Below are positions 5,477 to 28,272 of a stretch of 36,191 nucleotides of DNA, in pieces. The translations under genes were made by a program, and so were the position numbers. Below the pieces are notes generated by a model. That model saw only the letters and a list, made by a program, of their open reading frames with translations, did no database searches and had not been told where the DNA came from. The stretch is from Nitrospirota bacterium (lineage in GTDB: Bacteria > Nitrospirota > Nitrospiria > Nitrospirales > Nitrospiraceae), in assembly GCA_030682135.1 (NCBI GenBank), contig JAUXQT010000012.1, positions 1 to 36,191 on the forward strand, read 5' to 3'. Within the stretch, counting starts at the first letter, position 1. The number at the start of each line of letters is the position of its first letter.

Positions 5477-6844
5477 ATGGACCACCATTCGAATAAGAAA
5501 CCAGGACAGAAATCCTCTATGCAGAAAATTGGTTGGTTCACGGCAACCTGTGTTCTCATCAGCAATATCGTCGGGGGCGGCATCTTCACGACGACCGGCA
5601 TCATGGCCCGGGATCTCGGCGATCCGATGCTGATTCTCCTCTTGTGGTTCATGGGAGCATTATTCGCCGTCGGCGGTGCGATGATCTATGGCGAACTGGG
5701 GTCGCGCCTGCCACATGCCGGCGGGGATTACGTCTACCTGCGAGAGGCCTATGGACCTTTGGTGGCATTCCTCAGTGGATGGACCTCTTTTACGATCGGC
5801 TTCGGGGCCGCAGTCGCAGCCTCGGCTATCAGCTTTTCGTCCTATGCATTGAGAGTGATACCGATCGTGGATGAGCAGGGATGGCTGGCAAAGGGTCTGT
5901 CGCTCGCACTGCTCTGGATGGCGACCTTCCTGCATTGCCAAGGCGTGGGAACCGGCGGCCGCGTGCAGCTCTTGCTCACCACCACAAAAGTCGTCGCCAT
6001 CGGGGGATTGATCCTCGGCGGGTTATGGACAATGGCAGACCAGGGATTCGGCCTCCTCGAGAGGCCCGCCTTGCGACAACCGACGGTTGGAGCCTCCGCC
6101 ATCGCACTGGTCATCGTGACCTACTGCTATCTCGGCTGGAATGTGGCAGGCTACATTGCCAGCGACATTGTTGATCCCCAACGGACCTTGCCCAAGATCA
6201 TGATCGGGGGCACAGCCTTCGTCGGTGTGATGTATCTGCAGCTGAATGTCGTCTACCTGTCGGCGCTCTCGATTGCCGAGTTGGCTCAAGAACCTATTGT
6301 GCCGGTCGCGGAGAAGGCCGCTGCTGCCTTGTGGGGTCCCCAGAGCGGACGAATAGTCGCAGCCATTCTCTGTCTCTCCATTGCTGGAGCCGTCAGCGCC
6401 ATGACCTGGGCGGGACCCCGTGTCTATTGGGCCATGGCACGGGACGGCATGATTACGCCCTGGCTTGCCAAGCTCCACCACCGCACCGCGGTGCCGGCTC
6501 GGGCAATTGTCTTTCAAAGTCTCTGGGCCTCGCTGCTCATTGTGAGTGGGACGTTCGAGCAGCTCCTCGTATACAGTGGCCTCGTACTCTCATTCTTCAT
6601 GGCCTTGACCCTCTCCTCCATCTTTCATCTTCGTCGAACAGGCCCCGTAGGTATCCAGCAGTACCAGGCGCCACTCTATCCATTTCTCCCAGTCACACTC
6701 GTCTGTGGTGCTGCCGCCCTGGTCATCTCCAGCATGCTGGAACGACCGGCTGAATCGCTCTACGGCGCAGTAACTGTTCTCAGCGGTATTCCACTGTATT
6801 ATTATTGGCGGAGGGCTGACAGTCGCCACCGGCATAAATCCTGA
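5477..6844 (+). CDS. APC-superfamily amino acid permease
   Basis: The 455-aa integral membrane protein has about 12 hydrophobic segments. The first carries SNIVGGGIFTTTG, the glycine-rich substrate and sodium or proton site of APC transporters, followed by YGELGSRLPHAGGDYVYLREAYG, the cytoplasmic loop typical of LAT/SteT-like exchangers. It should move amino acids or related compounds across the inner membrane; the exact substrate cannot be told. The ATG at 5477 has only a weak, distant GGGAAG, and ATG 5519, closer to the first membrane segment, is an alternative start. It is divergent from phhB, with a 172-bp gap that must hold both promoters. A palindromic repeat lies 70 bp downstream. Confidence 0.88.
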   Translation: MDHHSNKKPGQKSSMQKIGWFTATCVLISNIVGGGIFTTTGIMARDLGDPMLILLLWFMGALFAVGGAMIYGELGSRLPHAGGDYVYLREAYGPLVAFLSGWTSFTIGFGAAVAASAISFSSYALRVIPIVDEQGWLAKGLSLALLWMATFLHCQGVGTGGRVQLLLTTTKVVAIGGLILGGLWTMADQGFGLLERPALRQPTVGASAIALVIVTYCYLGWNVAGYIASDIVDPQRTLPKIMIGGTAFVGVMYLQLNVVYLSALSIAELAQEPIVPVAEKAAAALWGPQSGRIVAAILCLSIAGAVSAMTWAGPRVYWAMARDGMITPWLAKLHHRTAVPARAIVFQSLWASLLIVSGTFEQLLVYSGLVLSFFMALTLSSIFHLRRTGPVGIQQYQAPLYPFLPVTLVCGAAALVISSMLERPAESLYGAVTVLSGIPLYYYWRRADSRHRHKS

Positions 6845-6914
6845 CGAAGCGCGTGAAAATCCCCATTCCAATCATCCACCTCAATCCGACAGGACTCGTC
6901 CACACCGGAAAAAA

Positions 6915-7044
6915 TAGCAGGCTATTCAAAAAGGCTGTCCAGCAAGGCCGCAGCGAGTGAAGACCGGAGACGTACCCTCTAGGGTACGTTGAGGATCTGA
7001 ACGATGCGAGAACGATGCTGGCAGACGTTTTCAACAGCCTGCTA
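6915..7044 (+). repeat. Palindromic intergenic element, copy A (130 bp)
   Basis: The ends TAGCAGGCT (6915-6923) and AGCCTGCTA (7036-7044) are perfect inverted repeats, with partial pairing continuing for about 16 bp. The centre is a perfect hairpin, CGTACCCT (6971-6978) with AGGGTACG (6981-6988). It aligns with copies B and C through blocks such as CAGCAAGGCC, CGTTGAGG and GCGAGAACG. It lies downstream of the permease gene. Confidence 0.85.
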
Positions 7045-7050
7045 GAAACG

Positions 7051-7089
7051 GAACGGGCGACCCTGCACTAGGTGGGAGGTCGCCCGTTC
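7051..7089 (-). terminator. 12-bp perfect hairpin after the decayed ORF
   Basis: GAACGGGCGACC (7051-7062) pairs perfectly with GGTCGCCCGTTC (7078-7089) across a 15-nt loop. On the minus strand it begins nine bases after the TAA at 7098-7100, a usual place for a terminator. The following bases (CGTTTCTAGC) are only moderately T-rich. Confidence 0.5.
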
Positions 7090-11769: not shown

Positions 11770-12119
11770 TGGTGGAGGCGAGGGGAGTTGAACCCCTGTC
11801 CGAAGACCTTCAGCACAACGGATCTACATGTTTAGCCGATCGTTTTAGTTTCGCAGCCACCCACGCCCACCGGCTAGCTTAGACTGGCCACTAGCCCAGT
11901 ATTGTCTCGTCCTCAGCCGCTGAGCACCAGCTTTGGACCAGCCCGCTGTATCGCGCTCCGACCACCCCCGCGGGCCTCAGGTGGAGGAACGTCGCAGTTA
12001 TTTAAGCTGCGAGTGCAAATTCTTGGTTTGCAGTTACATTTTCCCGGAGGATTTACGAGACCCCGAGAGCTCGACATGCACCGCTGACCTTAGTATCCCC
12101 GTCGATTCCGGTCGCCCCC
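11770..12119 (-). ncRNA. ssrA: tmRNA (ssrA)
   Basis: The minus strand gives a ~350-nt one-piece tmRNA. The 5' end GGGGGCGACCGGAATCGACG pairs with the 3' end CGCCTCC followed by ACCA, so CCA is encoded (11772-11770). The T-arm GGGGTTCAACTCCCC precedes it. The tag frame reads GCA AAC CAA GAA TTT GCA CTC GCA GCT TAA, that is ANQEFALAA, ending in the usual ALAA degron. Together with SmpB (29805-30284) it rescues stalled ribosomes and tags the incomplete peptides. RNase P should make the 5' end. A palindromic element begins only 10 bp upstream (12130), so the promoter must lie within or beyond it. Confidence 0.95.
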
Positions 12120-12129
12120 TTTCGGTCGG

Positions 12130-12243
12130 ATGTTGAAAAAGGCTTCTGGCAGCGTTCTCGCTTAGCTCAACGCCTCAACGTACTGAGAAGTACGCCTCGG
12201 CATCTCGCGCACTGCGGCCTTGCCAGAAGACCTTCTTGAACAT
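12130..12243 (-). repeat. Palindromic intergenic element, copy B (114 bp, inverted relative to A and C)
   Basis: Ends ATGTTGAAAAAGG and CCTTCTTGAACAT form an imperfect terminal inverted repeat of about 22 bp that includes a shared CTTCTGGCA block. The centre is CGTACT (12179-12184) and AGTACG (12189-12194). Read on the minus strand it shares GGCAAGGCCGCAG, GTACGTTGAGG and GCGAGAACG with copy A. It lies directly upstream of ssrA. Confidence 0.82.
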
Positions 12244-12269
12244 CCTCAAGATCTCTGACTCGGCCATTG

Positions 12270-26165: not shown

Positions 26166-26596
26166 GATCGCTTCTCCTTTCGAGGTGTGCTCGTGAATGT
26201 AATCCCTGCCTTCTGCACTTCCTGATAGGGGAGGAGCCAGACCAGCGATTCGTCGCTGAGATCGCCGACCTGAATACGGTTTCCCCAGGGATCGCGGAAG
26301 TCGCACCGAAAACCCGGCTGCATCGTCAGCTTGTATTTGCTCATCAATTTGCGCCGGACTTCTTTGATCTGCTTGGCATCCCGGACCATCAAACCGAAAT
26401 GTTTCACACGGTCCGGTTGCAATGTCTCTACTTCAAAGATCGCCATGAATTGATGCTCGCCCAGCTTGCACCAGGCGGCGCCTTCGCCACCGGTGAGCAT
26501 CGTCAAACCAAAGACATCGGCATAGAACTTCACGGCCTTCTTGACCTCGGTCACTTCGATCACGATATGGTTACAGCCATAGACTTGGACTGCCAT
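26162..26596 (-). CDS. VOC (glyoxalase/dioxygenase) family protein 2
   Basis: The 144-aa protein has a single VOC pattern: CNHIVIEVTEVKKAVKFYADVFGL, then a second module VKHFGLMVRDAKQ and FRDPWGNRIQVGD. The likely His ligands are at NHIVIE and KHFGLMV. In the third site the family Glu is replaced by Gln (RIQVGD), so metal use differs from the glyoxalase pattern or is absent. It overlaps the upstream DsbA-like gene by one base (stop TAA and ATG share an A) and the next gene by four, indicating tight translational coupling. Confidence 0.87.
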   Translation of the reverse strand: MAVQVYGCNHIVIEVTEVKKAVKFYADVFGLTMLTGGEGAAWCKLGEHQFMAIFEVETLQPDRVKHFGLMVRDAKQIKEVRRKLMSKYKLTMQPGFRCDFRDPWGNRIQVGDLSDESLVWLLPYQEVQKAGITFTSTPRKEKRS

Positions 26597-27240
26597 TACG
26601 CACCTGCCTTTCTTGTCAGCTGATCCACTTCGACCTTCTTGAAGGCCGAGACGAATCGATCCGGGGGCTGCGCGCCGGATAGCGCATAGGTCCCGTTCAG
26701 GAGAAAATATGGGACGCTGCGAATACCGAGCCGATGTCCCTCGGATTCTTCAGCCTTCACCTCTGCCGTTCCTTCGTGACCCCGAAGAAATTGTTCAGCC
26801 TTGAGCCCGGCACGTTCAGCCAACTGTGCAAGGACGGAGAGCGAGCCGATATCCTCACCCTCTTCGAAGTAGCCTTTGAAAAGCGAGTCGACCATGGCGT
26901 TTTGGCACCCCTCTTGTCCTGCATACCAAATCAGTCGATGGGCCAGGAAGGTATTGGGCGTCCGCGCAATCTTGTCGAACGCAAAGGCAATATGCTCCTC
27001 AGCGCCGGCCGCGAGCACATGTTCTTCCATCTGGCGAAACGCGTCTAAGCTTCCGAACTTCGCTTCGAGATAGGCCGTACGTTCAAGGCCTTCTTTCGGC
27101 ATCGTCGGATTCAGTTGAAACGGCCGCCAGGTGATCGCCGGCTTCGCCAGACCGTTCGATTCGCTCAGCGCCCGTTCCAACCGACGTTTCCCCACATAAC
27201 ACCAAGGACAAACGACGTCAGAGTAGATGTCGATGTGCAT
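26596..27240 (-). CDS. DsbA-family oxidoreductase (FrnE/2-hydroxychromene-2-carboxylate isomerase-like)
   Basis: The preferred start is the second of two ATGs (27240; 214 aa), seven bases after AAGGA; ATG 27243 is also possible. A TTG at 27279 would lie inside a repeat and is unlikely. The fold is DsbA-like: IDIYSDVVCPWCYVGKRRLE with a CPWC redox motif near residue 12, and GIRSVPYFLLNG with the cis-Pro loop. This is the FrnE subgroup, cytoplasmic because no signal peptide is seen. Members reduce or isomerise disulfides or act in aromatic metabolism. It begins in the operon just after repeat copy C. Confidence 0.92.
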   Translation of the reverse strand: MHIDIYSDVVCPWCYVGKRRLERALSESNGLAKPAITWRPFQLNPTMPKEGLERTAYLEAKFGSLDAFRQMEEHVLAAGAEEHIAFAFDKIARTPNTFLAHRLIWYAGQEGCQNAMVDSLFKGYFEEGEDIGSLSVLAQLAERAGLKAEQFLRGHEGTAEVKAEESEGHRLGIRSVPYFLLNGTYALSGAQPPDRFVSAFKKVEVDQLTRKAGA

Positions 27241-27266
27241 CATAAATTCCTTTACTGCTCTATCCC

Positions 27267-27393
27267 GCAGGGTGCTCAAAAAGGCCGTTCAGCAAGGCCA
27301 CAGCCGACGGAAGCACCGGAGGCGTAGCCCCTGGCTACGTTGAGGATGCTTTCGAGGCGAGAACGACGCTGACGGGATTTTTCAGCGTCCTGC
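27267..27393 (+). repeat. Palindromic intergenic element, copy C (127 bp)
   Basis: Ends GCAGGGTGCTCAAAAA and TTTTTCAGCGTCCTGC are imperfect inverted repeats (13 of 16). The centre is CGTAGCC, CCT, GGCTACG. It shares CAGCAAGGCC, CCGGAGGCGTA, CGTTGAGGAT and GCGAGAACGACGCTG with copy A. It lies between two genes of the DoxX operon and overlaps the last four codons, including the stop, of the pirin gene. Confidence 0.85.
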
Positions 27394-28272
27394 CAAGTGT
27401 CCCATCTTGCCCGCTTGGTAATCGTTCACAGCTTGAACCAGCTCCGCCTTGCTGTTCATAACAAACGGGCCATAGCGGGCAATCGGTTCCTCGATAGGCG
27501 CTCCGGCCATCACCAGGAGGCGGCTATCTTCCTGAGCAGCAATCGTGACCTGCGAGCCATGTCGGTGGCACACAATCAGTTCAGCTTCCCCAGCCGCTTG
27601 TGATCCGTTGACGGAGGCACGACCCTGCAAGACAAAGAACGAGGCATTGTGCCCTTCGGGAAACGTCACTGTCGTGCTCTGTCCGGCCGTCAATGCGAGA
27701 TCATAGAGCTCAACCGGTGAAAAGGTCCGCGCCGGGCCGCTCTGTCCCTGATACGATCCGGCAATGACCCGCAATCGACCGGCACCAACGCCGAGCAGGA
27801 CGACCGGAATATCCACGTTGAGAATCGTTTGATAACCGGGCGCGGACATTTTCGACGCAGCCGGAAGATTCACCCACAGTTGAATGGCATGCAACGTTCC
27901 GCCGTTCTTGGCCCATTCCTTTTCGTGCAGCTCTTCATGGACGATTCCGGATGCGGCCGTCATCCATTGCACATCGCCCGGGCCGATCACGCCTGCGTTT
28001 CCAGTAGAGTCCCGATGCGCCAGAATGCCTTCGTAAACGATCGTCACGGTTTCAAACCCTCGGTGAGGATGTTCTCCCACGCCGCGAGGATGGTCGGTCG
28101 GTGCAAAGTACTGCGGCCCGGCATAGTCGAGCATGAGAAAGGGACTGACCTCTCGATCGAGCTCGTTGCTGGGGAAGAGATTCCGCACGGGAAATCCGTC
28201 ACCGACCATATGAGTCGAACGGGGCTGAAATAGACCTACGATTCCTTTTGCGACGATTGTCTGCGTTGCCAT
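27382..28272 (-). CDS. Pirin family protein
   Basis: The 296-aa bicupin protein has the pirin signature: NPF-like SPFLMLDYAGP near 44, then VGEHPHRGFETVTIVYEG and GDVQWMTAASGIVHEE, whose His residues and Glu form the Fe site. Bacterial pirins cleave quercetin-like flavonoids or act as redox sensors. ATG 28272 follows GAAGGGGG. The product ends ...GHLAGR, the last residues coming from repeat copy C (27267-27393), so the native C-terminus may have been altered by insertion of the element. It is the third gene from the operon promoter, 16 bp after the NmrA-like gene. Confidence 0.95.
   Translation of the reverse strand: MATQTIVAKGIVGLFQPRSTHMVGDGFPVRNLFPSNELDREVSPFLMLDYAGPQYFAPTDHPRGVGEHPHRGFETVTIVYEGILAHRDSTGNAGVIGPGDVQWMTAASGIVHEELHEKEWAKNGGTLHAIQLWVNLPAASKMSAPGYQTILNVDIPVVLLGVGAGRLRVIAGSYQGQSGPARTFSPVELYDLALTAGQSTTVTFPEGHNASFFVLQGRASVNGSQAAGEAELIVCHRHGSQVTIAAQEDSRLLVMAGAPIEEPIARYGPFVMNSKAELVQAVNDYQAGKMGHLAGR

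Follow-up and report, generated by a model that had tools for sequence, protein, structure and literature searches.

A widespread hairpin repeat of Nitrospira genomes, best read as an IS5-type MITE with a conserved structured half

Three copies of an intergenic hairpin repeat were found in the window, a stretch of 36,191 bp that is an entire contig (C36) of a Nitrospirota genome of 3.75 Mb in 113 contigs. The best reading of the repeat from its sequence is that of a MITE which would be moved in trans by IS5-type transposases. The explanation that we consider highly probable as a whole is an IS5-derived MITE with YTAR targets, in which the left module has decayed and the hairpin has been kept by selection. 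The repeat is short, occurs in many copies, has no transposase gene, shares its terminal inverted repeats with an IS and is missing from empty sites in relatives. The definition of a MITE fits in every testable feature, with target duplication partly shown. A strongly covarying, conserved hairpin core is unusual for a MITE. The GyrB of the host is 94-95% identical to those of Nitrospira sp. CG24E and ES-bin-41.

The three copies lie within a few bases of the places given in a first-pass annotation of the sequence (6915-7044, 12130-12243 and 27267-27393; Table 1). Its description of the copies was also borne out, with shared blocks and terminal inverted repeats in all three, copy B inverted relative to copies A and C, and a central palindrome in which the bases are changed and the pairing is kept (CGTACCCT/AGGGTACG, CGTACT/AGTACG and CGTAGCC/GGCTACG). 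All three were observed to fold far better than their dinucleotide shuffles (z -4.3 to -6.4). An Rfam search up to an E value of 1 gave no match at any of them, the sole match in the window being the tmRNA.

Copy A is located 3' of an amino-acid permease gene (5477-6844, + strand), and the terminus CTAGCAGGCTGTTGAAAAC is present at its right end (7027-7045, - strand) with one mismatch. Immediately to the right of this copy and outside the element there is a perfect inverted repeat (GAACGGGCGACC/GGTCGCCCGTTC, 7051-7089), which is perhaps a terminator. Copy C is neighboured by a DsbA-like gene (26596-27279, - strand) and a pirin gene (27382-28272, - strand), both identified by Pfam. The stop codon of the pirin gene (27382-27384) lies inside the copy and is supplied by the element.

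Table 1. Positions of the hairpin copies and associated features in the window.
Feature	Position	Strand	Basis
Copy A, 124-bp hairpin module	6918-7041	+	cmsearch 137 bits; BLAST family of at least 40
Left flank of copy A, ATAG	6914-6917		Imperfect YTAR-like target copy; sequence and pattern match at 6914-6932
Right flank of copy A, CTAG	7042-7045		YTAR target copy; sequence
Copy B, hairpin module	12128-12246 (core); 12126-12247 (model match)	-	cmsearch 103 bits
tmRNA gene, neighbour of copy B, outside the element	11770-12119	-	Rfam RF00023, E 1.9e-78; ARAGORN
Copy C, hairpin module	27268-27392	+	cmsearch 124 bits

A BLAST search with copy A as the query gave at least 40 matches in its own genome, the best of the other copies being 91% identical (E 1e-45). 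Eleven strong copies (score >60) were found in 400 kb picked without regard to the repeat, or about one per 36 kb, and 23 in 436 kb when weak and partial copies were included and the window was counted in; both densities come from sampled stretches that cover about 20% of the genome. Extrapolated from this sample, there are about 100 strong copies per genome. The right-hand terminus CAGGMTGYTGAAAAAGTCCGC, searched as a pattern of 21 bases with up to two mismatches, was found at 141 places in the genome and at none when read backwards, a count which takes in elements with a different interior. The first-pass annotation had held that a lack of further copies, or an alignment no better than chance, would speak against its proposal; the BLAST and terminus counts contradict both. 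The covariance-model search that it had suggested, carried out here with a model based on 41 own copies, gave many further copies as well.

Matches to this model were found, with the own genome included, in all 32 genomes of the genus that were searched, in all 37 members of the family and in 59 of the 61 genomes of the order. Across the phylum, 90 of 198 genomes contain matches, those beyond the order being weaker (mostly E about 1e-4 to 1e-15). Weak matches that recur up to about 15 times per genome were observed in three families of the phylum outside the order (f19, f27 and f13), and these are possible distant relatives of the hairpin. A search of plasmids gave no copies, and the exact core was absent from the viral contigs in which it was sought. 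Our literature search found no paper describing the repeat in Nitrospira, and in RepRanger Nitrospira moscoviensis appears solely in a table of counts.

At full length the unit measures about 200 bp and consists of a weakly conserved left module of about 76 bp and the 124-bp hairpin, in the order [YTAR]-CAGGCTGCGGAAAAAC-76-bp left module-124-bp imperfect palindrome ending TTTTTCAGCATCCTG-[YTAR]. The ends of the element are CAGGMTGYKGAAAAA, with CAGGMTGYTGAAAAA at the right end, and they are flanked by 4-bp YTAR sequences; no transposase is encoded between them. The left module (about 76-84 bp) was found to the left of the hairpin in 13-15 copies of the own genome and never alone in 773 kb. Of the 146 copies gathered from the genus, 38 show a match to CAGGCTGCGGAAAAAC as their left end, about 76 bp away. 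Inspection of the left module by eye for a promoter revealed no convincing -10 element.

YTAR is present at the left flank in 24 and at the right flank in 20 of the 38 full-length units, and among the flank pairs are three of TTAG/TTAG and one of CTAA/CTAA. The 4-mers of the two sides are identical in 10 of the 38 units compared with 6.4 in shuffled pairs (p about 0.05), an excess that is supportive and not strong because CTAG dominates. Of the target duplications that the first-pass annotation had advised looking for, YTAR on both sides is clear and identity of the two flanks is only partly shown. Among the other 108 copies, YTAR was found at the right flank in 49 and at the left flank in two, which indicates that the right edge is a genuine terminus of a transposon and that the left edge of a bare hairpin is mostly not one. 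Weak left-end matches at 74-81 bp are in excess among these 108 copies, some of which therefore carry a decayed left module. About three quarters of the copies have no recognisable left module, and this was counted against the explanation as an IS5 MITE.

A perfectly conserved 38-bp repeat with a small hairpin (CTCACCCGCCCAACCCTGGCGCGCCAAGACGCGCCT) was observed at one and the same insertion position in the left arms of two own copies (L014:5429-5531 and L027:12625-12723), and it is near-identical in the elements of other genomes (also L146 and L242). It would be another small mobile palindrome, lodged within the first.

Transposase families were sought in relatives and their flanks were scanned for the termini of the element. 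Intact IS with matching ends, for which the first-pass annotation had proposed a search, were found in sister species, one of 1327 bp (L305:1316-2642, in G014) and one of 1326 bp (L319:1325-2650, in G008), both lengths including the flanking tetranucleotides. Both ends of these two elements are YTAR-CAGGCTGCGGAAAAAC, identical to the left end of the full-length MITE (e.g., L228, L235 and L223). Their transposases are encoded in open frames of 372-374 aa and belong to the IS5_4 family of NCBIfam (NF033581, 280.6 bits compared with a cut-off of 140). In several genomes, further relatives of the transposase are bounded by ends that follow the pattern CTAGCAGGCTGTTGACAAAC, with CTAG, and duplication of YTAR has been reported for IS5 (PMC10359306). 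A search with PF13751 (IS1182-type) as a candidate had led to this partner, for which the IS1182 model scored below its cut-off.

No intact transposase of the partner type was found when the own genome was searched, a decayed relative being the sole trace. This IS5-type relic (L329, G000:C101:9733-10305) is degenerate and about 50% identical to the partner, with in-frame stops and unrecognisable ends. The enzyme has apparently been lost from the own genome. Among the 61 genomes of the order, the transposase was found in 15 compared with 59 for the MITE. Both this difference and the missing intact enzyme weigh against the explanation. We infer that mobilisation takes place in trans, where an IS5-family transposase from elements of about 1.33 kb with the same termini would move the MITE into YTAR sites.

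The compensatory change that the first-pass annotation had seen at the centre of three copies extends over the hairpin in the 41 own copies. In these, 98.0% of the cells are paired (91.5% when shuffled), 16 of the 33 pairs are changed on both sides (shuffled 7.3) and 70 cells show double changes (shuffled 15). None of 500 shuffles reached a covariation as high, and pairing falls to 30-43% when one side is slid by 1-3 columns. When the fold of the 41 copies was imposed on 146 distinct copies, in which the length of the middle stem varies, double changes were found at 20 of the 30 Watson-Crick pairs. One strand is favoured, with G-U in 96 cells compared with A-C in 32, and the + strand gives the better fold in 135 of the 146 copies, these being related sequences and not independent. 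The non-canonical internal loops are conserved as well. GA lies opposite GA in 139 of the copies, where the other strand would give TC opposite TC, and the unpaired block CAAGGCCGCAG, opposite CGAGAACG, is present in 129 and is conserved as well as any part of the element. The conservation of this block argues against template-switch correction of the palindrome as the sole cause of the pairing.

Twelve orthologous pairs had enough flanking sequence for a comparison of divergence. The hairpins differ at 4.8% of positions (71/1486) and the adjacent intergenic DNA at 12.8% (132/1028), a 2.7-fold difference (pooled Fisher p 6e-13) that is in the same direction in 10 of the 12 pairs (Wilcoxon p 0.007). 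The hairpin is probably under constraint after insertion. We infer selection rather than gene conversion behind this slow divergence; gene conversion or same-site replacement, as between L027 and L273, could account for part of the conservation. The changes at paired sites in the orthologues show a mild bias, with 7 compensatory changes, 18 that keep a pair and 17 that break one, so that most of the family's covariation probably arose in source elements.

This near balance of 18 and 17 changes, with 7 compensatory, is also what favours the strongest alternative, namely that the repeat is a pure genomic parasite without a host function, whose hairpin is constrained in the source elements only, for transposition, and whose covariation reflects subfamilies together with template-switch correction. 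The copies do form subfamilies and same-site replacement was seen. However, a hairpin free of constraint in the host does not fit with the slower divergence of the orthologous hairpins relative to their flanks, with the decay of the left module of the MITE while the hairpin stays, or with the persistence of the unpaired blocks, both CAAGGCCGCAG and the opposed GA, which template-switch correction would erase. We regard this alternative as doubtful, although it deserves some weight. In the preferred reading of an IS5-derived MITE with a selected hairpin, the left module would decay after insertion and selection on the single-stranded fold of one strand would keep the 124-bp hairpin. The first-pass annotation had offered selection for a fold or the spread of a mobile palindrome as its two possibilities, and both appear to apply, with spread as a MITE followed by conservation of the hairpin half.

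The flanking genes of twelve other copies were sought in three relatives in which the gene ends are 90-97% identical, and several of the sites were found to be empty (L212 in G017 and G021, L025 in G009 and G017, and L205 in G009). The comparisons with conserved flanks are L025 with L262, L205 with L258 and L212 with L261. In the empty sites the native stop codon is at the same place without the element. At the dsbA-pirin locus, many Nitrospira have a gap of 15-30 bp and no element, and in others that stop codon is occupied by different structured elements. Among 60 copies, about one third have a stop codon exactly at the right end. The stops found 0-2 nt from the right end are TAG (15), TAA (6) and TGA (2), compared with 150, 164 and 220 respectively for genes overall. 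Since YTAR, read on the other strand, is compatible with TAG and TAA but not with TGA, target choice and the purging of insertions within genes suffice to account for this position, and targeting of stop codons as such is not needed. In compact genomes the YTAR sites would survive mostly at TAG and TAA stops, which would leave the copies glued to the 3' ends of genes. At one pair of orthologous gene ends (L027:9539 and L273), copies of different subfamilies were observed at exactly one stop codon, which suggests repeated insertion at, or replacement of, one site.

The clean empty sites in close relatives refute the non-mobile version of another explanation, in which the repeat is a structured RNA or an intrinsic-terminator-like element that is selected at gene 3' ends and leaders and inherited in place. 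The transposon termini and the YTAR flanks speak against it as well, and we consider it very unlikely. Such an element would agree with the fixed position at stop codons (about one third of the 60 right ends at gap 0), the strong covariation, the slow divergence and the presence in a tmRNA leader, and a GC-rich stem is followed by a T run of at least five in 104 of the 146 copies. Nevertheless, changes from A-U to C-G keep the pair and break the T run in 16 of the 146 copies, which indicates that the pairing and not the T run is conserved. A scan with a terminator consensus flags neither copy A nor copy B, and a hairpin of this length would exceed its loop limit. The broken T runs and the conserved inner loops make it unlikely that a plain intrinsic terminator is the whole story.

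The first-pass annotation had also left open whether the element is MITE-like or REP-like. The MITE part of this proposal is upheld by the IS5 ends, the YTAR flanks, the empty sites and the many copies, and the REP part is not. A REP/BIME-type palindrome would depend for its movement on a REP-associated tyrosine (Y1) transposase, an enzyme that acts on hairpins in single-stranded DNA. The many extragenic palindromic copies resemble such a system, and a single-strand-acting enzyme could explain the strand preference of the fold. Yet no match to PF01797 (Y1_Tnp) was found in the own genome, which is 99.96% complete, with the controls working. The element is near 4 of the 30 PF01797 loci of relatives, with no visible enrichment over a background density that is itself an estimate. 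The unit of 124-200 bp is long compared with about 20-40 nt for REP, and YTAR flanks on both sides and ends common to IS5 again point elsewhere. We consider this origin very unlikely. An integron attC-like recombination site was considered because the repeat adjoins stop codons and its better-folded strand is opposite to the gene. It can be dismissed, since no attC core boxes were seen at the ends by inspection and these ends are identical to those of IS5-family elements.

Copy B lies between a promoter-like sequence, which is conserved upstream of the tmRNA in relatives, and the mature 5' end of the tmRNA, its right end being 8 nt before the latter. It is presumably transcribed within the tmRNA precursor. 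The same position in the tmRNA leader is occupied in G011, G006, G023, G005 and G013, and G017, G009 and G002 have another small hairpin there. The tmRNA-leader copies of G000, G011 and G006 have their flanks in common, with differences on both sides of the middle stem. Hairpin elements 8-9 nt upstream of the mature tmRNA were observed in several Nitrospira (window 12128-12246; L353, L366, L361, L362 and L363), so that the leader of the tmRNA precursor may contain a mobile hairpin.

Intergenic repeats of a second structured family, which have a core like ACGAGATACGCTTCACGAGCGACGAACGACG, occupy these stop-codon sites and the tmRNA leader in other Nitrospira (L148, L151, L153, L155, L162 at the pirin locus, L358 and L373 in the tmRNA leader) and were also observed in the own genome (L018:7340 and L207:15816). 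Some of these repeats have the outer ends of the element described here and a different interior.

Several known repeats share features with this family. RUP of Streptococcus pneumoniae (107 bp, 108 copies) is likewise a short, intergenic, non-coding repeat with termini that match an IS, by whose transposase it would be moved in trans; however, its partner is IS630-Spn1 with TA targets, where the partner here is of the IS5 family with YTAR targets, and no conserved structured core has been reported for RUP (PMC2229807). The ERIC elements of enterobacteria, also known as IRU or RU-1 (127 bp; PMC2229807), are intergenic imperfect palindromes of nearly equal length, a likeness of size and form only. 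They belong to a different lineage. For our repeat the likely mobilising IS family can be named, and the unit includes a second module that decays. The Correia or NEMIS elements of Neisseria (about 107 and 155 bp) are MITEs with two length forms and form transcribed hairpins near genes, with an internal IHF site and processing by RNase III reported (PMC2229807); their target and IS relation differ from those found here. The Rickettsia palindromic elements (105-146 bp; PMC2229807) are also palindromes with terminal inverted repeats, one of them in the tmRNA gene. They enter protein genes too, whereas the tmRNA insertion in our window lies shortly before the mature 5' end. REP/BIME sequences with RAYT transposases resemble the repeat as numerous extragenic palindromes, and differ from it in the Y1 transposase, which is missing from this genome, in the shorter unit and in the lack of IS5-type ends.

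The hairpin may have taken on a job in the host. Our best guess is that it serves as an RNA hairpin, either processed or stabilising, located at the ends and in the leaders of transcripts. By analogy with ERIC, for which an orientation-dependent effect on mRNA stability has been reported in Yersinia, and with NEMIS (PMC2229807), RNA processing or stability would be the likeliest host effect. A bolder and rather unlikely extension is that the MITE-derived motif, with its conserved non-canonical internal loops, has been exapted and kept genome-wide at transcript ends and leaders, the tmRNA leader among them, across Nitrospira and perhaps the phylum, where it would provide a shared site for processing, stability or protein binding and thereby constitute a dispersed regulon seeded by a transposon.

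Nitrospira are key nitrifiers for which little genetics is available. Many of their genes bear a copy of the family at the 3' end or in the leader. The family also coincides with assembly breaks and provides a marker for the comparison of strains. With its conserved non-canonical loops and its slow divergence relative to the flanks, it offers a testable case of a host keeping the hairpin of a transposon.
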